64,000 nt of DNA from assembly GCF_016653315.1 (NCBI RefSeq), contig NZ_NHSH01000057.1:323882-387881 (forward strand), written 5' to 3'. How positions within the stretch are numbered: the stretch's first letter is position 1; every line of letters starts with the position of its first letter. The translations under genes and the position numbers were made by a program. Below, in pieces: positions 9,676 through 61,475 of this stretch. Origin of the DNA: Halochromatium roseum (GTDB taxonomy: Bacteria > Pseudomonadota > Gammaproteobacteria > Chromatiales > Chromatiaceae). Under the pieces are notes generated by a model, which saw only the letters and a list, made by a program, of their open reading frames with translations, was not told the origin of the DNA and searched no databases.

Positions 9676-10956
9676 ATGACCATCGCCGTCGGCCAACTAC
9701 TTCAAGGCACCCTGGGTGTCGCAGTCTTGTTGCTGCTTGCATGGCTCGTCAGCGAGAACCGACGCCGCATCTCGGCCCGAGTGGTGATCACCGGGCTTGG
9801 GTTGCAGATTGCGCTGGCCGCACTGCTGCTTGGACTTCCGCAGATGCGCTCGGTCTTCATCGCCGTCAATGGCGTCGTGGTCGGATTGCAGCAGGCTACC
9901 GAGGCCGGCACCGGTTTCGTCTTTGGCTATCTGGGCGGCGGGCCGGCGCCGTTCGATCTGGTTGAGCCGGCCAACAGCTTTATCCTCGCATTTCGTGCCC
10001 TGCCGCTGATCCTGGTCATCGGCGCGCTCTCGGCGCTGCTCTTCCATTGGCGTGTTCTGCCGGTCGTCGTCAACGCCCTCGCCTGGCTGCTGCGCCGCAG
10101 CCTGGGCATCAGCGGCGCCCTTGGGCTGGGCACCGCGGCCAACATCTTCATGGGCATGATCGAGGCTCCGCTGATGATCAAGCCTTATCTCAAGGCGATG
10201 AACCGCGGTGAGTTATTCGCGCTGATGACCACCGGCATGGCAACCATCGCCGGCACCGTGATGATCCTGTATGCCTCGCTGATCAGCGAGGCGATCCCGA
10301 ACGCGCTTGGGAATATCCTCACGGCGTCGCTGATTAGTGCACCGGCGGCGCTGCTGATCGCCGAGATTCTGGTCCCATCGCATCCGCGCGCGAGCGCAAC
10401 CACACCGCTTCCAGAGATCGAGATCCGCTCAGAGGGCGCCATGGACGCGGTCACCCGCGGCACGCTCGATGCCATCCCTCTCCTGCTGAACATCATCGCC
10501 ATGCTGATCGTGATGGTGGCGTTGGTAACGCTGGCCAACGAGCTACTCGCGTTTCTGCCGCCGGCGGCAGGTGCACCGCTCACGCTAGAGCGCATCCTTG
10601 GCTGGCTGTTCGCGCCCGTGGTCTGGCTGATCGGAATCCCCTGGCACGAAGCCGCAACCGCCGGTGCTTTAATGGGCACCAAGACGGTGCTAAACGAGCT
10701 GCTGGCCTACATCGCGCTTGCCGACCTGCCGCCGCAAGCCCTCTCCGAGCGCAGCCGGCTGATCATGACCTATGCGCTCTGCGGCTTCGCCAATCTCGGC
10801 AGCCTCGGCATCATGCTCGGCGGTCTGGGATCGATGGTGCCGGAGCGCCGCCCAGAGATCGCCGCACTCGGCTTCAAGGCGATCCTTGCTGGCACCCTGG
10901 CGACGCTGATGACCGGCGCGATCGCTGGCCTGATGCTGACGCTGCTGGGCAGCTAA
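9676..10956 (+). CDS. Concentrative nucleoside transporter (NupC/CNT family)
   Basis: A 426-residue inner-membrane protein with about ten hydrophobic segments. It shows the CNT landmarks: the GTAANIFMGMIEAPLMIKPY re-entrant loop near residues 153-172 (with the conserved glutamate that contacts the ribose), MTTGMATIAGTVMILY, and YALCGFANLGSLGIMLGGLG near residue 370. It imports nucleosides with a cation. It stands alone between minus-strand genes and converges on the ribonuclease gene. Confidence 0.88.
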   Translation: MTIAVGQLLQGTLGVAVLLLLAWLVSENRRRISARVVITGLGLQIALAALLLGLPQMRSVFIAVNGVVVGLQQATEAGTGFVFGYLGGGPAPFDLVEPANSFILAFRALPLILVIGALSALLFHWRVLPVVVNALAWLLRRSLGISGALGLGTAANIFMGMIEAPLMIKPYLKAMNRGELFALMTTGMATIAGTVMILYASLISEAIPNALGNILTASLISAPAALLIAEILVPSHPRASATTPLPEIEIRSEGAMDAVTRGTLDAIPLLLNIIAMLIVMVALVTLANELLAFLPPAAGAPLTLERILGWLFAPVVWLIGIPWHEAATAGALMGTKTVLNELLAYIALADLPPQALSERSRLIMTYALCGFANLGSLGIMLGGLGSMVPERRPEIAALGFKAILAGTLATLMTGAIAGLMLTLLGS

Positions 10957-11018
10957 GCATCAACACCCGCTGCTGCGGCTTCCAAATCAGGTCATCTCTT
11001 CCGTGAAACAAGTGCTTC

Positions 11019-11033
11019 GTCACCCGAGGTGAC
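11019..11033. terminator. Short hairpin between convergent genes
   Basis: GTCACC-CGA-GGTGAC is a perfect 6-base-pair stem in the 92-base gap between the convergent transporter and ribonuclease genes. No T-run follows on either strand, so termination by this stem alone is uncertain. Confidence 0.3.
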
Positions 11034-11048
11034 CGCAGGCGATTAATG

Positions 11049-12899
11049 TTAGCCCAGCAGCCGAAATTGGCACTCGGCCTGGGCCAGATCGACCTCTGCC
11101 AGCGCCAGCGGCACACATTGGTCCAACGCCAGCCCCTGCTTGGCGCGAATGCGTGTCTCGAGCGCAAGCTGTGGAATCAGTAGCACCGCCTTGCGCTCCT
11201 GCAGCTCGACCACCACGCCCTCGCCTTTCCACCGCGGCTGCTGTTTCAGATACACCAGCTTCCAGTGCAGGTTGGATTGTCGCTCGGCGCGGCGAACGAT
11301 GATCCCGCCTTGGTCGGCCTCACCGGCACGCTGACTGACCTGCTCGGCACTCAGCGGCTCGCTGCCGCGCAGATACTGACGCAGCTGTTGATGAACCAGC
11401 AGATCACCATAACGGCGCAGCGGGCTGGTGGCGCGTGTGTAGGCATCGAGCCCGAGCCCGAAGTGGCGACCCGGCTCGCCGACGACGGTGCGGCTCGGTT
11501 TGAACAGGCGCCGATAGGCGTACATGCCGGCCATGCTGCTCGGCTGGTCGATCCGCTCCGGAGTCGGCTGGGTTGCATAAGGGATCGGCAGCTCACGCGC
11601 CTGACAGTAGCGGGCCGCCGCCTCGCCCGCCATCAGCATCAGCTCGGTGACCATCGAGCGCGAACCGGTGCGCTCGAGCGGACGGATCAAGACCTGATCC
11701 TGGTGTAGCCGGACGCTGACCTCGGGCAGATCGATCTCGGCCGCGCCTTGGGCCAAGCGACGCTGACGGTAGCGATCGGCGATCTGCGCTAGGTCCGCCA
11801 GCGGCGCCTGATCGAGCCGGCGGTCAGCCTCGGCATAACTCAGCCGCTGCACCTGCACCAGCGTTGGCTGGATCTCGATATCGCTGATGTCACCCTGCGC
11901 ATCCAGTCGCAGGCCGAATGAGAGCGCCGGCGATTGGGCCTGCAAGCCAAGCCCGAGCTGCTCGGTGATAGCCATGGGCAGCATGTGGATGATGCCCTCT
12001 GGAAGATAGAGGTTGGCGCCGCGCGCCCTGGCCTCGCGATCGAGTTCGGAATCTGGCTGCACCAAGGCGGCGACATCGGCAACATGCACCCAAACGCGAT
12101 CGCCATCCAGGCTGATCGCATCGTCTGGGTCTTGATTGCCTTCGTCATCGATCGCAAAGGCCGGCAGATGCGTCAGGTCGAGGCGTTCCGGCTCGCCGAC
12201 GCGCTCTGCCGCCGAAGCCAGGCTCGGGATCGGCAGCTCCGGATTGTGCAGCGCCGCCCCGACGCGGGTCGGATAGGGGTTGTGCGTCGGCGGCCAATAG
12301 CCCACCGAAACCAGCAGCCGATAGGCCGCGATCGGTGTCTCCTCATAATTCAGCGCCTTGAGGATACGGCTGTGCTCCCCCTGCAGATTCGCCAGCCGCT
12401 CGACCTCGCCGAGTGCGTCTCGGTCCTCAGGCTCGATCCGCCCCTGGCGCAAGCGCTCCAGCATCGCAGCCCAGGCTTGATCCGCCTTGGCCTTGGCCTC
12501 GCGCTCGGCGCGATCGCGCTCGATCAGCTCGCCGGCACGCGGTCTTAACGCCTCCGCCGTGCCTTCGAACCAAAGCCCTTCACTGAGTCGCTCCCAAGCA
12601 CCCCAGGCAGCGCCCGGGCTATGCTCACCGTACAGCAGCTCCGCGAGTTCCTTGAGATCGGTCTCGGTACCCTCGAGCAGCTCCCAGGCCTCTTGCGGAT
12701 GGACCTCGGGTGGACGCAGCTCGGCGAGACTGGTCACCGGCCCGGGATGCAACGAGAGGATGTCCTTCGGCCGCACACGCTTGGTCTGCCCGCCTTCAAT
12801 CTCGATCTCGATCTTCTCCGCCGCGGCCAGCACCCGCGCCGGTCGGCTCTTGTAAACGACCAGGCTGCCGGTTCGGGGAATGGCTTGATGGGAAAGCAA
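11049..12899 (-). CDS. RNB-domain 3'-5' exoribonuclease (RNase II-like)
   Basis: A 616-residue RNase II/R superfamily enzyme that degrades single-stranded RNA. The catalytic RNB domain shows IDDEGNQDPDDAIS (residues 250-263) with the clustered Asp ligands, WVHVADVAALV, and TSPLRRYGDLLVHQQL near the end. It is shorter than RNase R and lacks a recognisable cold-shock pair before the RNB domain. The C-terminal S1-like region (WKGEGVVVELQERKAVLLIP) is short. The N-terminal 230 residues (RPKDILSLHPG and an acidic helical region) resemble the atypical RNB proteins of cyanobacteria and gammaproteobacteria. Confidence 0.85.
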   Translation of the reverse strand: MLSHQAIPRTGSLVVYKSRPARVLAAAEKIEIEIEGGQTKRVRPKDILSLHPGPVTSLAELRPPEVHPQEAWELLEGTETDLKELAELLYGEHSPGAAWGAWERLSEGLWFEGTAEALRPRAGELIERDRAEREAKAKADQAWAAMLERLRQGRIEPEDRDALGEVERLANLQGEHSRILKALNYEETPIAAYRLLVSVGYWPPTHNPYPTRVGAALHNPELPIPSLASAAERVGEPERLDLTHLPAFAIDDEGNQDPDDAISLDGDRVWVHVADVAALVQPDSELDREARARGANLYLPEGIIHMLPMAITEQLGLGLQAQSPALSFGLRLDAQGDISDIEIQPTLVQVQRLSYAEADRRLDQAPLADLAQIADRYRQRRLAQGAAEIDLPEVSVRLHQDQVLIRPLERTGSRSMVTELMLMAGEAAARYCQARELPIPYATQPTPERIDQPSSMAGMYAYRRLFKPSRTVVGEPGRHFGLGLDAYTRATSPLRRYGDLLVHQQLRQYLRGSEPLSAEQVSQRAGEADQGGIIVRRAERQSNLHWKLVYLKQQPRWKGEGVVVELQERKAVLLIPQLALETRIRAKQGLALDQCVPLALAEVDLAQAECQFRLLG

Positions 12900-51490: not shown

Positions 51491-52978
51491 CTAATCAGCG
51501 CGCTGAAGGCGCCCATAGAGCGTGATCAGATGCTTGATCCGCTGCGCGAGCTGCGCATCGAGCTGATCCCACTGAAAGCGCCAACGCCAGTTACCCGTCG
51601 GCACCCCAGGCCGGTTCATCCGATGATCGCCATCAAGCCCCATCAGATCCTGCATCGGCACCACCGCCAGGTCAGACCGCGAGGCAAAAGCGGCGCGGGT
51701 CATCGGCCATGGCATCGGCTCCTGAGAATGCCCGAGGTAGTCATCGACATGCTGACGCAGACCCTCATCAAGGGCTTCATACCAACCTAATGAGGTGTCG
51801 TTATCGTGAGTCCCGGTGTAGCAGACTGAATCGCGCCCGTGATGGAAGGGCAGATAAGGGTTGGCAGCCCCCCCTTCGAAGGCGAACTGGAGCACCTTCA
51901 TGCCGGGCATCCGGTACCGTCGCCTCAAGGCATCGACCTCATCGGTGATCACCCCAAGGTCCTCGGCAATCAGCGGCAAGACCCCAAATTCGTCTCGCAA
52001 GCGCATGAACAGCGCATCGCCCTTCGCCTTGACCCAGGTTCCGTTCATCGCCGTCTCTTCCTCGGCGGGCACCTCCCAGTAGGCCTCAAAGCCGCGGAAA
52101 TGATCGATGCGGATCATGTCGAACAAGCGCAGCTGAGTGCGCATCCGATCCAGCCAGAAGCGAAAGCCGTTCTTCTCCAGCTGCTCCCAGCGATAGAGCG
52201 GGTTGCCCCAACGCTGGCCAGTTGCCGAGAAGTAATCCGGTGGCACGCCGGCGACCACGCGGCAGGTGCCGTCGGCATTAAGGTCAAAGTCCCCTGGACG
52301 GGCCCAGACCTCGGCGCTGTCATGGGCAACAAAGATCGGCATGTCACCAAATAGACGCACCCCGCGCTCATTCGCGTGCGCGCGCAGCGCGTCCCATTGG
52401 CGAAAGAAGACGAACTGCTCGAAACGGATGTAATCGATGGTCTTTCCCAGCCGCCGACGGGCTTGGCCAAGGCTTCGTCCGTCGCGGTTACGCAGCCCTT
52501 TCGGCCATTGCCACCAAGGCGCCTCGCGCTCCTCGTGAATGGCGCGATAGAGCGCATAGTCGTCAAGCCAGAAGCGCTGCGAATCACAGAATTGGTCGAG
52601 TTCCGCGCGTTCTTCCGCGGAAGCCGCTCCCAAGAAGCCCTGATGCGCTTGACGCAGACGCTCAAGCTTGGCCGCGTCGCTATCGGCCAGGCCCCGATCA
52701 GCAGGCAGCCAACCCCGCGCCACCAACGGCTCGAGGCCGATCAGCCGCGCGCTGCCGGCATGCGCCGAGCTGGTTTGATAAGGCGAATCGCCGGCCTGCG
52801 GCGGACCGATCGGCAGCATCTGCCAGACACTGACGCCGGCATCGGCGAGGAAATTGACAAAATTAAAGGCCTCCGAGCCAAGGTCACCGCAGGGTCCCCC
52901 GCCAGGTAGCGAGGTTAGGTGCAACAAGACGCCGGCACGGCGCTGGTCGAGGCAGTCGGTCGCAGGGGCTTCGTGCAT
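51491..52978 (-). CDS. malQ: 4-alpha-glucanotransferase MalQ
   Basis: A 495-residue GH77 disproportionating enzyme for maltodextrins. RRAGVLLHLTSLPGGGPCGD opens the catalytic barrel, WQMLPIGPPQAGDSPYQTSS follows, DMIRIDHFRGFEAYWEVPAE holds the nucleophile Asp near residue 290, and IAEDLGVITDEVDALR the acid/base Glu. It is full length for the short bacterial form. It lies between btaA and glgC on the same strand and works with the GH13 enzyme and GlgB on glycogen-type glucans. Confidence 0.93.
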   Translation of the reverse strand: MHEAPATDCLDQRRAGVLLHLTSLPGGGPCGDLGSEAFNFVNFLADAGVSVWQMLPIGPPQAGDSPYQTSSAHAGSARLIGLEPLVARGWLPADRGLADSDAAKLERLRQAHQGFLGAASAEERAELDQFCDSQRFWLDDYALYRAIHEEREAPWWQWPKGLRNRDGRSLGQARRRLGKTIDYIRFEQFVFFRQWDALRAHANERGVRLFGDMPIFVAHDSAEVWARPGDFDLNADGTCRVVAGVPPDYFSATGQRWGNPLYRWEQLEKNGFRFWLDRMRTQLRLFDMIRIDHFRGFEAYWEVPAEEETAMNGTWVKAKGDALFMRLRDEFGVLPLIAEDLGVITDEVDALRRRYRMPGMKVLQFAFEGGAANPYLPFHHGRDSVCYTGTHDNDTSLGWYEALDEGLRQHVDDYLGHSQEPMPWPMTRAAFASRSDLAVVPMQDLMGLDGDHRMNRPGVPTGNWRWRFQWDQLDAQLAQRIKHLITLYGRLQRAD

Positions 52979-53083
52979 AGAAATACAGCTTGGTCGAGAT
53001 GACGAGTGTGAAGGAAACCGCTAGCGCGCCCGCCGCATCAGCTCTTATAGCCAGCAGCGACCAGCCGCGCGATAAACTTAAGG

Positions 53084-54355
53084 TCAGCGTATTCGGTTGA
53101 TGCTTTGGCCGAGCATCTCCGGTGTCACCAGGGTAACGCCACCTTCGGACACATAGAGTCCGGCCGCCATGTCCTCAGCGCGATCGCAACCGATGCGCAT
53201 GCCTTCCGGAAGCCGGCACCAGTGGTCGACGATGGCGCGACGGACCACACAACCGCGCCCGATATCCGCATTCGGTAGGATCACACTGTCCTCGACATGT
53301 GCGAACGAGTGCACCCGCACATTTGAGAACAACAGCGAGTGGCGCACCAGCGCGCCGGAGATGATGCAGCCGCCGGAGACCATCGAATCGACCGCCATAC
53401 CGCGGCGGATATCGTTATCGAAGACAAACTTGGCCGGCGGTAGCTGCTCCTGATAGGTCCAGATAGGCCACTCATCGTCATAGAGACTGAGTGGTGGGGT
53501 CACTCCGATCAGTTCCAGGTTCGCTTCCCAAAAGGCATCGATGGTGCCGACATCACGCCAGTAGGCCTGGGCGCCACTGTGCGGATCACGGAATGGATAG
53601 GTCATCACGCGATAGCGTTCGATCGCGCGCGGGATCACGTCCTTACCGAAATCATGGCTAGAACCCGGCATATCGGCGTCAGCGATGACCTGTTCAAACA
53701 GGAAATCTCGATTGAACACGTAGATGCCCATCGACGCCAATGCGATGTTGTCCCGGTCTGGCAGCGAGGGCGGATCGGCCGGCTTCTCGAGAAAGGCGCG
53801 CACACGCTGTTCATCATCGACGCTGATGACGCCAAAGCCCGAAGCCCGTTCGCGCTCGACCTCGATGCAGCCGATCGTCATATCGGCGCCGGATTCGACA
53901 TGCTGCGCGATCATCGGTCCATAGTCCATCTGGTAGATATGGTCGCCAGCCAGCACCAAAACGTACTCGGGATCGTGGCTGCGAATGATGTCTAAATTTT
54001 GAAATACCGCGTCGGCGGTACCGGCGTACCAAGCGGTTTCAGCCACCCGTTGCTGCGCCGGCCACAGCTCGACGAACTCGCCGAACTCACCGCGGAGGAA
54101 GCCCCAGCCCTTCTGAATGTGTAGGATCAGCGAATGCGCCTTGTATTGCGTCAATACCCCGATACGGCGAATTCCGGAGTTGATGCAATTCGAGAGCGGA
54201 AAGTCGACGATGCGAAACTTGCCACCGAACGGCACCGCGGGCTTCGAGCGCCATTGCGTGAGCTGACGCAACCGCGAGCCGCGACCGCCGGCCAGGATCA
54301 GCGCCAAGGTGTTTCGCGTCAGACGACTAACGAAACGTGGGTTGTCTTCCGCCAT
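53084..54355 (-). CDS. glgC: Glucose-1-phosphate adenylyltransferase GlgC
   Basis: A 423-residue ADP-glucose pyrophosphorylase, the committed step of glycogen synthesis. [20 protein letters not shown] near residue 14, [38 protein letters not shown] and the C-terminal left-handed beta-helix ([40 protein letters not shown]) are all present. The start at 54355 has a strong GGAGG six to eight bases before; an extended frame to 54496 lacks similarity. It is divergent from glgB across 208 bases that must hold both promoters. Confidence 0.93.
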
Positions 54356-54563
54356 GCTGAACCTCCGGACGCAAGCGCCGATTCGAGGTGGATGCAAGGG
54401 GCCGACTCGACAGCCGGACCTCAGCCAACCTTGCAGAACGCGCCATCCAGCGCGGTTGACGGCAACAATACGGCTCAGCCAGTTGACGGCAACCATCCGA
54501 GCCGGTGCATTCCATCGCTATGGTAACATCGTCGGCGTAAAGAGCCTCAGGATACCGATACAC

Positions 54564-56951
54564 ATGCCCGAGAGTCAGCTTCGTTACCCTAACCTTCCCG
54601 AGCCGTTGCTGCGGATCGTCGAGGCCCGACATCACGACCCCTTCGAGGTCCTCGGGCGTCACGACCAAGGTGACGGCAATGTCATCGTTCGCGTCTTGTT
54701 ACCGCGCGCCGAGCGGGTACGTATCGGCAAGGGCGATATTGAACTCAGCCGCATCGAAGGAACCGACCTCTTCGTCTGGGAGGGACCAGCGAGCGCCGTC
54801 GATGACGACTATCAGATCAGCTGGTACGACAAGCAGGGGCAGGTTCATATCCAGCACGATCCCTACAGCTTCGGCCCCCAGATCCCGGACTTCGACCTGC
54901 ATCTCTTCGGGGAGGGTCGCCACTGGCACGCCTATCGCTTTCTTGGCGCCTATCAACTAGAGGTTGATGGCATCACCGGCTTCCAGTTCGGCGTCTGGGC
55001 GCCTGGTGCGACCCGAGTCAGCGTCGTCGGCGAATTCAACAACTGGGACGGTCGTGAGCATCAGATGCGGGTTCGCCCCGGCTCCGGGGTCTGGGAGTTG
55101 TTCATCCCCGGACTGGACGCAGAGTCGCTGTACAAGTTCGAGCTGCGCTCCGCCGAGGGCGTGCCGATGGTCAAGATCGACCCCTACGCCAGCGCCTTTC
55201 AAGAGCGTCCGGATAATGCTTGCATCCTGCACGCCCCGAGTGACTTCGTCTGGACCGACCAGGACTGGCTCGAGGCACGCGCCAAGAACAACTGGCAGCA
55301 GCAGCCGATGTCCGTCTATGAGGTGCATCTCGGCTCTTGGCGCCGCGCCGAGGACGGCAGCTTCCTCAACTACCGCGAGCTCGCCGAGCAGTTGGCCGAA
55401 CACTGCAAGGAGCTGGGCTTCACCCACCTCGAGCTACTACCGATCACCGAACATCCGCTGGATGCCTCCTGGGGCTATCAGGCGACGGGTTATTTCGCGC
55501 CAACCGCACGCTTCGGCACGCCTGATGATTTCCGTTATTTCGTCAACTATCTGCACGCGCGGGGCATCGGCGTGCTGCTCGACTGGGTACCAGCCCACTT
55601 CCCGCGCGATACCGTCGCACTGGCTCGTTTCGACGGCACCGCGCTGTACGAGCATGCCGACCCGCGCCAGGGCGAACATAAAGATTGGGGCACGCTGATC
55701 TTCAACTATGGCCGCCACGAGGTGAAGAACTTTCTCCTCTCGAGCGCCCTCTTCTGGCTCGATGAGTACCACATCGACGGCCTGCGCGTCGACGCCGTGG
55801 CCTCAATGCTCTACCTCGACTACTCGCGTAATGACGGTGAGTGGATACCCAACAAGTACGGCGGCAACGAGAACCTGGACGCGGTTGAGCTGTTGCGCCA
55901 GCTCAACACCGTGACCCATGAGCAACATCCTGGCTCGCTGATGATCGCCGAGGAATCGACCTCCTGGCCGCAGGTCTCGCGGCCGACTTATCTGGGCGGT
56001 CTCGGCTTCAGTATGAAATGGAACATGGGCTGGATGCACGACACCCTATCGTACATGGAGAAGGACCCGATCTATCGCCACTACCACCATGACCTGCTGA
56101 CCTTCGGTCTGCTTTACGCCTTCACCGAGAACTTCGTGCTGCCGTTCAGCCATGACGAGGTCGTGCACGGTAAGAAGTCGATGCTCGACAAGATGCCCGG
56201 TGATGCCTGGCAGAAGTTCGCCTCGCTGCGCCTGCTCTACACCTTCATGTTCAGCTATCCGGGCAAGAAGCTGCTGTTCCAGGGCTGCGAGTTTGCACAG
56301 GGTCGTGAGTGGAACTTTGATGCCGCCGCCGAGTGGGAGCTGCTCGAACGACCGCAGCATCAGGGCGTGAAGACAATCGTCGCCGATCTCAACCAGCTCT
56401 ACCGCACCGAACCGGCATTGCACGAGGTCGACTTCGAAAGCTCAGGCTTCGAGTGGATCGACTGCCACGACTCCAGCCAGTCGGTATTGAGCTATCTGCG
56501 CAAGTCCAAAGACGGCAAGCAGCTGGTCGCCTGCGCCTTCAATTTCACCCCGGTCCCGCGCGAGAACTACCGCATCGGCGTCCCGGTCGAGGGCTACTAT
56601 CGCGAGGCCGTCAACTCCGACGCCGAACTCTATGGTGGCAGCAACGTCGGTAATCGGGGCGGCGTGCATTCAGAGCGCAGCAGCTGGATGGGCCGCCCCT
56701 ACTCGATCCCGCTCGCGTTGCCGCCGCTGGCAGGTGTCATCATGGTGCTCGAACCAAGCTCGGCTGCATCCGATGACGCCAATGCCGCCGACGCGTCGAG
56801 CCCAACTGCACCCATCTTGGCCGAAGGTCGAGCCGCGCGGAACACGACTGACACTGATCAGAGCGGCTCCGATAACGCGACCAACTCACCAGCGGCAACC
56901 GCCGCTGCTGATACCCAGTTTACCACCTACCCCATGGAGTCGAGCCGATGA
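54564..56951 (+). CDS. glgB: 1,4-alpha-glucan branching enzyme GlgB, C-terminally extended
   Basis: A GH13 branching enzyme that introduces alpha-1,6 branches. From the ATG 54564 it has 795 residues: an N-terminal CBM48 ([20 protein letters not shown]), the catalytic barrel with [29 protein letters not shown] (nucleophile Asp), [11 protein letters not shown] (acid/base Glu) and [14 protein letters not shown]. The last 65 residues (rich in Ala, Ser, Asp, Thr) follow the normal C-terminus VIMVLEPSS and look disordered. The gene's stop overlaps the next gene's ATG by 4 bases. Confidence 0.93.
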
Positions 56952-57907
56952 AGCGACAACCATTCAGCCTGCTTGCACTCGTCTTGCTCATCCTTGCCAA
57001 CCTGGCCGCTGCCGTCGAGCGCGGGCCGGCCGTACCCGACTATCCGTTTCAAGAGGTCGCCGCCGGCGTCTACGTGATCCAAGGCCCCATCGCCTATCCA
57101 TCCCCTGAGAATCAGGGCTTCATGAACAACCCGGCCTGGGTGGTGACCGACGCTGGCGTCGTCGTGATCGATCCGGGCGCCAGTGTTCAGAGCGGCGAGA
57201 TGGTCCTGCGCGCACTGCGCAAGGTGACCGAAGCCCCGATCATTGCGGTGCTCAACACGCACGTTCACGGCGATCACTGGCTAGGCAACCAGGCGATCCA
57301 GGCCGCTTACCCGGACGTACCGATCTATGCCCATCCCAACATGATCGAAGCCATCGAGAACGGTGCCGGCGAGCAATGGCTCGACCTGATGCTAAGGGCC
57401 ACCGAAGGCGCGACTGCCGGCACTGAGGCGGTAGGACCCACCCAAGCCGTCGGCGGTGAAACCGAACTACAGCTCGGCGGACTCACCTATCGCATTCATC
57501 ATTGGGGACAGGCGCATACCAACAATGACCTCATGATCGAGATCCCCGAGCGCGCTGTGCTCTTTGCCGCCGACAACGCCAACAACCAGCGTATCGTGCG
57601 CTTTGATGACGCCTCGTTTGCAGGTCTCATCGACACACTGGAACGCGCCAAGGCGCTTCCGGTCAAGGTCGTCGTACCGGGCCACGGCCCGGTTGGCGGC
57701 CCTGAGATCATTGAGGAGAATCTCGTCTACGTCGCGACCCTCCGTGAAGCGGTGGCTGAGCTGTTCGATGCCGGCATGAGCGATTTCGAGATGAAGGCCC
57801 CCATCGCCAAACGCCTCAGCGCCTACCAGGACTGGGCTGGCTTCGAGGACGAACTCGGCAAGCACATTTCACTGGCCTATCTGGAAGTGGAGGCCGAGGC
57901 CTTCTGA
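56948..57907 (+). CDS. Exported metallo-beta-lactamase-fold hydrolase (SoxH-like)
   Basis: A 319-residue protein with a signal peptide ([20 protein letters not shown]) and an MBL fold: H-V-H-G-D-H at residues 105-110, the second histidine near [18 protein letters not shown], and [15 protein letters not shown] later. The beginning [20 protein letters not shown] and [20 protein letters not shown] resemble SoxH and quinoprotein-associated zinc hydrolases. Substrate is unknown. Its ATG overlaps the glgB stop, though the two products work in different compartments; the Cache protein gene follows 17 bases later. Confidence 0.8.
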
Positions 57908-57924
57908 GATTTTTCAGCGTTCGC

Positions 57925-59415
57925 ATGCGACAAGGTACGACCCTTATCATTCTGATGCTGCTCCTCGTCCTGCCGGTTCAGGCCGATGAGGGCATGCATC
58001 CGGTACTTGAGGATACCTATAACGCCCTGGATCAGATCCGCGATACCCGGCAAAATCAGCTAGAGGGCTATCTTCAACGGCTGCAGCAACTGGCCGGCCA
58101 GGCATCCACCGACGTCCATTTTCAGGACTACTTCAAGATCAAGCAGCGCTATCACCAGCTGCAGGGACAGTTGCCGGCGCCGCCCGAGGTGGTTCAGAGC
58201 ATCGAACAGCTCAAGAACTCCATCCGCGATCACTATCTCCAACACTACTCGATCTTCCATGACATCTTGTTCGTCGACAAGAGTGGATTCGTCCTTTCTA
58301 CCATCCGGCACGAGCGGGACTATCACGAGCACTTGTTTTCGGGTCGGCTGGCTGAATCGGCGCTGTCTCGCCAACTGTTGCGCGATCCGGAGCGATCGTT
58401 TGTGGATTACGATTTCTATTGGGCGTCGGATGAACCATCGGCCTTTTTTGTCGAGCCCATGGTCATCGACGGCCAAAGGCAGGGCTGGCTGGTTTGCCAG
58501 TCTGCCCTAAACCGGATCAACAGGATCTTCACCCGAGAAGATGATCTGGGCCAGACTGGAGAGGTCTTTCTCGCCAATCGTCGCCACCAGATGCTCACGG
58601 CCAGCCGACTGCACCCCGACCAGGGGGCGTTGCTACGGCACCTGGCCGCGAAAAACCTGGAGCCCAAATTTTCCCAGGGCGAGGGACACCGGCGAGTGAT
58701 CGATTACCGAGGCTACCCGGTGCTGACCTCGTTTACCCTCTGCCGCGTCCAGGACAGCGATTGGCTGCTGGTCGCCAAGATCGACGAAGACGAGATCCTA
58801 ACCAACCACTTCCGGCAACAGCACGCGGAAGATGTTTCGCTCCTTGAGCGCTATCTCCCAGTGGGCGATCCGGCTTTCTGCGCCGAGCATGTGCTGCCCG
58901 GAGATGGCACCATCGTGGACATGGACGAGTTTCGCTCGTCTGCTGATGCGCCCCTGTTGACATTCGGTATTTCCACCTGCACCGGCCTGCTGATGATCCT
59001 TCCCAGCGGCGAGGCAATTCTGGGCCACGCCAGCGAGCGTGACCGGATCTACGGCGGAACGGAGACCGATCTGCTGGGCAATATGTTGCGCGATATCAAA
59101 AGATTTCGGTTACTGCCTTACGAGGTGCGCGACCTCAAGGTGGTGCTGGTTGCTCCTCACGATCGGAGCCTAGGCGGCGCGGTGCAGCGTCTGCTCGCTG
59201 AGGGTTTGCTGCTTTCCCAGATCCGTTTCGCCCGTGTGGCCGAGGCCGAAAGCGCCACCCTGACACACGATCCTCGGCAGGGCAGCACCCTAGTGCGTTG
59301 GCGATTGTCGGAGTCGGCGGGTCTGCGTTGGCAATGCCTGGATGATCTGGAAGATCTAGGACAGGTCTACCAGAGCGCGATTGCCTATCCGTTGGAAACA
59401 AACCGACCGCGATAG
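57925..59415 (+). CDS. Exported Cache sensor with CheD-like C-terminal domain
   Basis: A 496-residue protein with a cleavable signal peptide (LIILMLLLVLPVQADEG, cut near residue 20) and no other transmembrane segment, so it is periplasmic. After a helical stalk, residues about 60-290 resemble a double Cache sensor (FHDILFVDKSGFVLSTIRHE, SDWLLVAKIDEDEIL). Residues about 340-480 contain TFGISTCTGLLMILPSGEAI then LGHA: T346, C352 and H368 have almost the spacing of the CheD deamidase triad (Thr21, Cys27, His44), followed by LKVVLVAPHDRSLGGAVQRL, similar to CheD's later strand-helix. A Gln deamidase outside the cytoplasm is not something I know of. The domain call is inference from the motif; the Cache call is moderately certain. 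Confidence 0.6.
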   Translation: MRQGTTLIILMLLLVLPVQADEGMHPVLEDTYNALDQIRDTRQNQLEGYLQRLQQLAGQASTDVHFQDYFKIKQRYHQLQGQLPAPPEVVQSIEQLKNSIRDHYLQHYSIFHDILFVDKSGFVLSTIRHERDYHEHLFSGRLAESALSRQLLRDPERSFVDYDFYWASDEPSAFFVEPMVIDGQRQGWLVCQSALNRINRIFTREDDLGQTGEVFLANRRHQMLTASRLHPDQGALLRHLAAKNLEPKFSQGEGHRRVIDYRGYPVLTSFTLCRVQDSDWLLVAKIDEDEILTNHFRQQHAEDVSLLERYLPVGDPAFCAEHVLPGDGTIVDMDEFRSSADAPLLTFGISTCTGLLMILPSGEAILGHASERDRIYGGTETDLLGNMLRDIKRFRLLPYEVRDLKVVLVAPHDRSLGGAVQRLLAEGLLLSQIRFARVAEAESATLTHDPRQGSTLVRWRLSESAGLRWQCLDDLEDLGQVYQSAIAYPLETNRPR

Positions 59416-59511
59416 GCAGTTCCGAAAACCCATCATCACGCCAATGACAGCTGGAAAGCAACCTGCTCCTCGCCGTCGTCCGGATGACGATTCCCGCGGA
59501 GCAAAAAACAG

Positions 59512-59718
59512 CTAATCGTTCTTCGTCGTATCGATCTTGAGCGGAATGTACGCGAAGCAGGTACGCTTCCAACTCGTAAAGAGCAGCACCAGCGCGATGA
59601 CCGTCAGGAGCATTTGAAGCGCCATGGCGGGGATAAAAAAGCTAATGGTGATGATCACAGCGGCCGCGATCAAACGGATGTTGCTATCGCCGTTGCCGAC
59701 GTTCTTAGGTAAGGCCAT
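59512..59718 (-). CDS. DUF2892 membrane protein (YgaP-TM-like)
   Basis: A 68-residue protein with ALPKNVGNGDSNIRLIAAAV at the start, then two hydrophobic helices (IITISFFIPAMALQMLLTVI) and KRTCFAYIPLKIDT at the end. The N-V-G-x-x-D-x-x-I-R opening and the C-x-x-Y-x-x-x-x-I-x-T end are those of DUF2892, the inner-membrane unit found alone or fused to rhodanese domains (YgaP). A hairpin-like GC region between 59463 and 59502 separates it from the convergent Cache gene; no T-run is seen. Confidence 0.8.
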   Translation of the reverse strand: MALPKNVGNGDSNIRLIAAAVIITISFFIPAMALQMLLTVIALVLLFTSWKRTCFAYIPLKIDTTKND

Positions 59719-59957: not shown

Positions 59958-61475
59958 TTACCTCTCCAAAAAGGCATTGACACTCAGGCTCCGCGGCAGC
60001 AAGCGCCCGCTAGGGCCTGGGGACATGGTCACGATCTGGCGTGAGTCCTCCGGACCATAGCTGACATGAATCGGCTGATCCGCGCCATAGAAGTAGAGCC
60101 GGTCGAATGGTGTATTCGCTGCCACCCACTCGGCCACCTCGCGCATGTCTTCGTCCTCGATGATGAAGTCCACCGCTGCACCCAGACGGGGGCAGATCAG
60201 ATTGCCAAGGCGATTACGCTCATGCGCGGCATGCTGATCGCGTTTCGGATCGATGCGCCCTGGGATCTGCCGCGCCAGCGCTGGCGAGCAAAAGCCATAA
60301 GTCAGGCGGATCATCCCGAACCAGTCGATCACCGGGTCTAACACCTGCTCTGCCAGCTCCAGCAGCGCCCTGTAGCTATCAGCGCGCTGCGGACGATTGT
60401 CGAACTCGCCCGCAGCCCGCAGACGCTGCCAGGTCTCGCCACACTCAATCAACTGCCGAAAGGTCAGGAACCGCCCGCAAGCATCATCTAGTGCCGGTAT
60501 CGTCTGTAATCGGCGCAGGCGCAGCCCATCCAGTTGCCAGTGGTGGCGAGCCAAGATTGCGGTCAGCTCCATCGCCGGAGGGCCATAGCCGGCAAGGCTA
60601 AACAGCCCTTTTGCCGCGAGCTGCTCCAGCGTGTCATCGAATGCCAACTGCTGTGGATAACCCGGAAATTCCTCATTAATGTAGCGCGATTTGCGGTACA
60701 GGAATGGCGGCTCGAACTGCTCGCCGTAGCCAAACAGGTCGACATCCTGGTCGCGCATCTTGATTTTCACACGTTCCAACAGGCGCGGTAGCGCCTGCCC
60801 CTCAAAGTCGTCGAAGCGCATCAGCGTCAGCTTGCCAGAGCCGATATGGAAGCTCTGGATTGGCGCCGAAAAGCCATAGCGAACCATGGCGGTGCGCTGA
60901 CGCGCGGCCTCCCAGCCCGCATGCAAGGGTGCGCCATCGTCGGCCGCCGTCTCGACCTCATCGACATCAAGATTGCCCAGCGGCAGCAACGCATGGCCAT
61001 CGATGCGATAACCTTTCTCTCGGACCAACGCCAACCACTGGCGCTGATAGCCGATACGGGTGCTATCCTCGAACAGGCCGATCGCCTCTGCTGCCGCTGT
61101 CAGCGCTACATATTCATCATGACGCGGATGATCGCTCGGCAGTAGCAGTTCCTTACGATGCAGGATCGGCGGGTTGAGGGAGTCGGCGTAGGTGCGATAG
61201 CCGATCTCACCCGTGCTCGGCTCAAAGCGCCAGCTCTCGCGCAGCGCTGGGAAGGGGTCATCGAAGAAGTGGGGATAATGAAGCAGCGCCACCTGGCCGT
61301 CGGCATCCAAGCGCAGCACATTGAACCGCTCGCCCCGCTCCAGCCCGGCAGCCAGCTCCGCCTGCCTGACGGCCTGCTCCCAAGCCTCGCGGCGAGCCTC
61401 ATCGAGAGCCGCCAGCGTCTCGACATGCAGGTAGGTTCGACGGCCGATCACTTTGCCTGGCATATCTTCACTCAT
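59958..61475 (-). CDS. DNA phosphorothioation-associated putative methyltransferase family protein
   Basis: A 505-residue protein. MSEDMPGKVIGRRTYLHVET, FNVLRLDADGQVALLHYPHF and the block NPPILHRKELLLPSDHPRHD match, as I recall the family, the conserved N-terminal region of the Dnd-associated putative methyltransferases. DQDVDLFGYGEQFEPPFLYR, KSRYINEEFPGYPQ and LTFRQLIECGETWQRL are also family-like. The last 130 residues (GFCSPALARQIPGRIDPKRD, then QHAAHERNRLGNLICPRLGA, AVDFI) carry a spaced His/Asp pattern similar to VanY/M15 peptidases. No typical SAM-binding glycine motif is visible. There are no dnd genes within the window, so the gene is an orphan here and its true activity is open. Confidence 0.7.
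   Translation of the reverse strand: MSEDMPGKVIGRRTYLHVETLAALDEARREAWEQAVRQAELAAGLERGERFNVLRLDADGQVALLHYPHFFDDPFPALRESWRFEPSTGEIGYRTYADSLNPPILHRKELLLPSDHPRHDEYVALTAAAEAIGLFEDSTRIGYQRQWLALVREKGYRIDGHALLPLGNLDVDEVETAADDGAPLHAGWEAARQRTAMVRYGFSAPIQSFHIGSGKLTLMRFDDFEGQALPRLLERVKIKMRDQDVDLFGYGEQFEPPFLYRKSRYINEEFPGYPQQLAFDDTLEQLAAKGLFSLAGYGPPAMELTAILARHHWQLDGLRLRRLQTIPALDDACGRFLTFRQLIECGETWQRLRAAGEFDNRPQRADSYRALLELAEQVLDPVIDWFGMIRLTYGFCSPALARQIPGRIDPKRDQHAAHERNRLGNLICPRLGAAVDFIIEDEDMREVAEWVAANTPFDRLYFYGADQPIHVSYGPEDSRQIVTMSPGPSGRLLPRSLSVNAFLER

Follow-up and report, generated by a model that had tools for sequence, protein, structure and literature searches.

A family of exported dCache proteins with a candidate CheD/NTAN1/YfiH-like cysteine-hydrolase domain

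Here we examine a gene in a 64,000-nucleotide stretch of the Halochromatium roseum genome (contig NZ_NHSH01000057.1, positions 323,882 to 387,881 of the forward strand; hereafter the window) whose predicted product joins an export signal, a dCache sensor domain and a C-terminal domain with a putative catalytic triad (Table 1). An initial annotation, made from the nucleotide letters, had described this C-terminal domain as closely matching CheD, the chemotaxis glutamine deamidase, and its export and fusion to a Cache sensor as an arrangement that its author had not seen described. Sequence comparison places the same pairing of Cache and CheD-like domains in distant bacteria as well. Judged by its sequence the C-terminal domain is not a CheD; together, a profile search and a structure model make its kinship to the CNF1/YfiH-like fold, which includes CheD, NTAN1 and YfiH, suggestive. 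That these proteins form a new exported family in which a cysteine hydrolase of this fold is fused to a sensor, and so would act as exported sensor-enzymes, is the most likely reading, one that we regard as evenly poised.

Architecture and conservation of the family

Table 1. Features of the dCache gene and its product, in window coordinates.
Feature	Position	Strand	Basis
Predicted exported dCache + CheD-like protein, 496 aa (P0001)	57925..59415	+	Open reading frame (ORF) and translation; codon-position pattern against the Lamprobacter orthologue
Predicted N-terminal export signal, residues 1-21 (...LPVQA)	57925..57987	+	Sequence reading; cleavage site by eye
dCache_1 sensor, residues 35-284	58027..58776	+	Pfam PF02743, E 1.8e-11
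Candidate C-terminal CheD/NTAN1/YfiH-like domain, ~residues 325-496	58897..59412	+	13-member alignment; PDB profile search; L058 model and Foldseek
T346, putative orienting residue of triad	58960..58962	+	Thr in 11 of the 13 members, Ser in two
C352, putative nucleophile	58978..58980	+	Invariant, 13/13
H368, putative general base	59026..59028	+	Invariant, 13/13
H412, second invariant His (A-x-H-x-x-S)	59158..59160	+	Strand-helix junction in homologue model

The family alignment comprises 13 members from 12 genomes, three of them (L085, L089 and L090) cut by contig ends, and reaches from the genus of the window to a second class of its phylum and to the phylum of a metagenome-assembled genome (MAG) of Gemmatimonadales. 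The orthologue from Lamprobacter modestohalophilus (L057) is 94% identical to the window protein, and nucleotide differences between the two at codon positions 1, 2 and 3 number 15, 6 and 48 in the Cache part (296 codons) and 8, 5 and 30 in the C-terminal part (193 codons). Differences thus lie mostly at third codon positions in both halves, and the protein is therefore under constraint along its whole length.

A whole-protein search of 55 relatives matched 14 genomes, two with full-length proteins and 12 with the Cache region only, and among plasmid records there were 36 matches, of which the 20 listed were all confined to query residues 29-304. Single-sequence searches with the C-terminal domain gave one real match, the genome of origin, among 274 genomes of the class (three matched at E up to 0.01, two being rejected) and matches in 2 of 210 genomes of the taxonomic family (three listed, one rejected), so that the domain is rare by that measure; a profile search of the order also found it in 2 of 210 genomes. 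Scanning of genome contigs recovered two loci, one in Lamprobacter and the other a full-length homologue of 50% identity in the Gemmatimonadales MAG. A profile of three sequences then brought in three further full-length members from another class of the same phylum (six of 398 genomes were listed: the genome of origin, the three new ones and two rejected), while a profile search of 48 genomes in the order of G609 listed four, three of them real. The phylum of the Gemmatimonadales MAG holds the family in 7 of 80 genomes, with two copies in the MAG itself (G864), and two scans of viral contigs yielded no relative. Several matches were set aside as chance: L022 and L023, whose frames overlap long ORFs that to the eye encode S-adenosylmethionine synthetase and CcmF; L027, at 18 bits inside an ORF reading by eye as a D-hydroxyacid dehydrogenase; G574, where the Cache end of the model matched over 24 and 30 columns; and G640, with 30 columns in a 51-codon frame.

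The signal peptide proposed in the initial annotation is borne out as a hydrophobic, export-type N-terminal stretch, ending ...LPVQA-DEG in the window protein (hydropathy maximum 1.72 within residues 1-60) and present in all ten members that reach their N-terminus (maxima 1.37 to 2.15; the start codons of L086-L088 are uncertain). Three members (L061, L062 and L084) carry a lipobox-like site. Along the rest of the chain the maximum 19-residue hydropathy lies between 0.99 and 1.75 across all 13 members, the highest values, 1.75 at residue 266 of L062 and 1.70 at residue 342 of the Lamprobacter protein (in the triad stretch), being borderline for a membrane helix. From this pattern we infer that the Cache and C-terminal domains both lie on the outer side of the membrane, hydropathy alone being no proof.

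The fusion to a Cache sensor is likewise upheld. Pfam was run on five full-length proteins, the window protein and four homologues: dCache_1 scored 44.5 bits in the window protein, 0.5 below the cut-off of 45, and 48.8 and 50.4 bits, both above it, in P0002 and L060; L062 scored 23.5, and L061 gave no dCache match at full length. The Cache region can be aligned in 12 of the 13 members, the exception being L090, which begins at the Cache end. This half is most like the ectodomains of methyl-accepting chemotaxis proteins (MCPs): of the 18 Cache-only loci, 12 fall within ORFs that bear a crude MCP motif, some loci sharing one protein.

In the C-terminal domain the translation contains T346, C352 and H368 as first described, within TFGISTC and LGHAS, and followed by LKVVLVAP. 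The annotation had named non-conservation of these residues as grounds for abandoning the idea; we find instead that C352 and H368 are invariant and that position 346 is always Thr or Ser, the two Ser occurring in L084 and L090. Spacing is fixed throughout, at 6 from T/S to C and 16 from C to H. The 17 columns invariant in all 13 members are V331, D332, E335, G348, C352, T353, H368, D373, Y376, A410, H412, S415, L423, L430, S431, I433 and W459. The window protein has five cysteines, of which only C352 is conserved throughout, and there is therefore no conserved disulfide partner; for an invariant cysteine of this kind in an exported protein, catalysis or metal binding would be the best account.

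It is this conservation that matters, as the loose triad on its own is weak evidence. Among 339 non-family stop-to-stop ORFs of at least 250 codons from the retrieved loci, [TS]x5Cx15-16H occurs in nine and T.G...C.{15,16}H in none, and 5000 shuffles of the window protein produced T.{5}C.{15,16}H in 87 cases and the stricter form in one.

At the putative active site, L084 (6523-8043, -), L089 and L090 form a subfamily in which GVGPCT replaces the GVSTCT-type sequence; its third triad position is Ser in L084 and L090 and Thr in L089. This subfamily possibly has a different specificity.

Kinship of the C-terminal domain

In PMC7022378, YfiH, CheD, NTAN1, CNF1 and BLF1 are grouped as CNF1/YfiH-like cysteine hydrolases, a superfamily with an alpha-beta-beta sandwich fold whose members range from enzymes of chemotaxis and of the N-degron pathway to bacterial toxins. 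According to the same source, NTAN1 has a structure like that of CheD (Z 13.6), although its primary sequence is similar to no known protein; the triads are Ser69/Cys75/His92 in NTAN1 and Thr21/Cys27/His44 in T. maritima CheD (PMC7022378). The invariant Cys and His of the superfamily are present in all 13 members of the new family.

Two routes point to this superfamily. When the family profile was compared with 177,635 PDB sequences, T. maritima CheD (2f9z_C) came first (E 0.29), its T, C and H falling opposite those of the family and a conserved upstream Glu also aligned. This match weighs more than its E-value, because CheD had been named beforehand, and is not an independent test, because CheD had been picked from the same residues. 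The second route was an AlphaFold model of a shorter stretch of the domain in the Gemmatimonadales homologue L058, built with the same three proteins as a model of the window's own domain (pLDDT, the predicted local distance difference test, 68.3; pTM, the predicted template-modelling score, 0.73). Its elements run short helix, three strands, helix, short helix, strand, helix, four strands, helix, and its top Foldseek match in the PDB is Bacillus licheniformis YfiH (6dzd_A, E 0.11, probability 0.87, template-modelling (TM) score 0.38). Six of the first 15 Foldseek rows are labelled YfiH, YlmD or DUF152, a further one, 1t8h, we take to belong to that family, and the remaining eight are of varied other kinds with probability at most 0.25. 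Both routes, through PDB sequences and through a model set against structures, thus reach the same superfamily first, and neither is significant alone. A search of the viral structure library BFVD with model m384436f53042 returned two uncharacterised giant-virus proteins as its best matches (Tupanvirus and Fadolivirus; 267 and 274 residues), at E about 0.01 and of no clear meaning.

A number of results speak against this kinship. Pfam CheD (PF03975) found no match, at E up to 10, in the window protein, the four homologues or the 13 domains. The E of 0.29 for CheD in the PDB search is not significant, and eight of the 11 PDB sequences listed there are phosphoglycerate mutases (E 0.45 to 1), which align at A-x-H-x-x-S and which we take to be unrelated; weak mutase matches (E 0.08 to 0.2) were also returned when single members were compared with NCBIfam. 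Alignment by hhalign of the 13 members with 29 CheDs gave a score of 18.8, which 2 of 100 column shuffles exceeded; a reversed control reached 17.4, and with six members nothing sensible was aligned. The reverse search, with a CheD profile, was negative, reporting 10 of the 13 members, the best at rank 51 of 1116. On the structural side, AlphaFold modelled the window's own domain poorly (pLDDT 51.8) and Foldseek found no match for it, the E and TM of the L058 match are weak, and CheD is absent among the best 50 of the 224 Foldseek rows for that model. The window protein alone gave nothing useful against NCBIfam and PDB sequences, and Pfam YfiH (DUF152) matched none of the window protein, the four homologues and the 13 domains. 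When the family profile was used to rank CheDs among background ORFs, the CheDs were mildly shifted (Mann-Whitney p about 3e-5; CheD ranks 7-832 of 1042, with 25 of 29 CheDs and 1017 of 1865 background ORFs reported and the remainder dropped beforehand), which is given little weight because CheDs are mutually related.

A direct comparison of motifs was made with CheDs from the same class, where CheD was found at 30 places in 23 of 75 genomes and 29 loci were used after exclusion of the fragment L056. All 29 have GSC at the catalytic Cys and a C-H spacing of 17, and 28 of the 29 have Thr at C-5, whereas in the new family ST, AT or GP precedes the Cys, GSC is absent, and T/S stands at C-6 as in T. 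maritima CheD. The genome of origin also encodes a separate, ordinary CheD elsewhere; the window protein is thus not a CheD that has been relocated. The annotation's description of a close match to CheD is accordingly not sustained, given the missing Pfam match, the absent GSC and the C-H spacing of 16 rather than 17. Kinship to CheD retains the leading PDB match with its triad in register and is weakened by the E-value of that match and by the non-significant hhalign comparison.

Genomic neighbourhood

Genes for MCPs are present in all 12 genomes carrying the family and in 7 of 14 control genomes. In MAG G864 the gene for the second copy (L084), which is a putative lipoprotein, follows a dCache MCP gene on the same strand at a distance of 96 bases, and the Cache regions of the two proteins share 28% identity over 210 columns (E 3e-22). 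Counting against the main reading, this is the sole case of an MCP-motif ORF among 11 neighbourhoods, several of which are cut short by contig ends, so that a single locus carries the link to receptors. Comparison of neighbours by eye, and of six by Pfam, revealed no shared partner gene. At L084 an ORF for a BBP2-type beta-barrel porin (10907-12199, -) lies upstream of the MCP and family genes on the same strand.

In the window, the family gene begins 17 bases after the end of an ORF for an exported protein of metallo-beta-lactamase fold (56948-57907, +), which is nearest to the SoxH-related quinoprotein relay metallohydrolases (178 bits, cut-off 280) and which overlaps at its start with the last part of an ORF taken by eye for glgB. 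In Lamprobacter (L057) the glgB-like ORF ends 210 bases before the ATG of the homologue, a gap too short for the metallo-hydrolase, which is thus missing between the two. The glgB-like ORF (+) stands beside malQ-like and glgC-like ORFs (-), and the three (51491-56951) read as a glycogen group. On the other side of the family gene, a 505-residue ORF (59958-61475, -) has no Pfam match and resembles TIGR04096, the DNA phosphorothioation-associated putative methyltransferase (127.6 bits, cut-off 150). A scan of 56800-59700 found no promoter. It gave five terminator-like sites where shuffled sequence averaged 2.2, one of them (57889-57904) immediately 5' of the gene. At L058 2099-4136 (-), near the Gemmatimonadales homologue, lie ORFs that we take to encode a bacterial microcompartment shell protein and a fused ribose-5-phosphate isomerase B/deoxyribose-phosphate aldolase.

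Proposed activity, alternatives and known systems

If the family does consist of exported sensor-enzymes, the dCache domain would bind a small molecule in the periplasm, and, as conservation and the studied enzymes suggest, C352 would serve as nucleophile, activated by H368, with T/S346 orienting the histidine. The bound ligand would control amide hydrolysis, the likeliest target being the side chain of Gln or Asn in an exported or membrane protein, a substrate class that we infer solely from the relatives. Homologues with the look of lipoproteins would hold the enzyme at the membrane by an anchor. The most specific form of this proposal, that the proteins are ligand-gated deamidases outside the cytoplasm, periplasmic or lipid-anchored, acting on Gln or Asn of chemoreceptor ectodomains or other envelope proteins, is distinctly improbable at present. 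If true, it would provide an external covalent adaptation step complementing cytoplasmic CheD, CheR and CheB.

The first alternative, which we consider unlikely, retains the fold and assigns it a YfiH-like function: as an exported amidase the domain would cut a small molecule or a piece of peptidoglycan, while the Cache half would detect products of the envelope or wall. This would agree with YfiH and YlmD being the best Foldseek matches, with the lack of the CheD GSC motif, and with the cleavage of UDP-MurNAc-L-Ser by YfiH through a triad of Asp89/Cys107/His124, as given in PMC8844914. T/S six residues before Cys is, however, the arrangement of T. maritima CheD and NTAN1 (PMC7022378). In addition, no YfiH appears among the 11 PDB sequences listed by the profile, and none of the six Pfam-scanned neighbours of homologues is a cell-wall gene by name, most neighbours being unscanned.

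Quite unlikely is a domain that is not an enzyme, in which C352, H368 and H412 would make up a site for metal or redox chemistry, or which would be an inactive scaffold binding a partner receptor. H412, D373 and Y376 equal C352 and H368 in conservation, and a cysteine exposed in the periplasm is prone to oxidation. The zinc in the active site of YfiH (PMC7022378) and the greater importance of binding over deamidase activity in B. subtilis CheD (PMC3513319) would also suit such a role; nevertheless, T/S346 and the two fixed spacings in 13 of 13 members are needed by a triad and not by a metal site. Just as unlikely is a real, conserved exported domain of unrelated fold whose likeness to these enzymes is coincidental, which would fit the lack of a significant match to any known family, best E-values above 0.01 in all three Foldseek searches, phosphoglycerate mutases scoring nearly as well as CheD and the loose triads of nine unrelated ORFs, but not the arrival of two different routes first in the same small superfamily.

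The known CheD-family protein-modifying enzymes work inside cells. An output domain of the CheD/NTAN1/YfiH fold on the sensing side of the membrane would be an unusual one-protein path from ligand to covalent modification of the envelope, and would add a new branch to this small superfamily. Among the best 10 to 15 titles and abstract openings given per literature search, in a collection thin in subscription papers, none describes such a Cache-CheD-like fusion.

Compared with known systems, the new family shares with YfiH/YlmD/DUF152 proteins (peptidoglycan-editing amidase and purine enzymes) the top structural matches of the L058 model, a Cys/His active site and, on the proposed reading, the fold. 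Those proteins are cytoplasmic, lack a Cache domain and, in YfiH, have Asp as third triad residue where the new family has T/S (PMC8844914). Like the eukaryotic N-terminal asparagine amidohydrolase NTAN1, which has Ser six residues before Cys, the family places its third residue at C-6; NTAN1 differs in a C-H spacing of 17 by its own numbering, and no sensor domain is mentioned in the available part of PMC7022378. NTAN1 also carries an added C-terminal region that recognises N-terminal Asn, and it is not among the 11 PDB sequences listed by the family profile.

Cache domains are mostly coupled to known signalling outputs (PMC4822843). The Cache half of the window protein is nearest to the ectodomains of dCache chemoreceptors, yet no HAMP or MCP output follows it, the output being the CheD-like domain instead. 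From CheD itself (PF03975; T. maritima 2F9Z), which deamidates glutamines of chemoreceptors and binds CheC, the family is set apart by its export signal and Cache fusion, by the additional invariant residues H412, D373 and Y376, and by the differences in motif, spacing and Pfam match given above. What it has in common with CheD is the T-x5-C arrangement of T21/C27, the invariant Cys and His, the upstream Glu, a presumably similar order of strands and helices, and the presence of chemoreceptors in the genomes that carry it.
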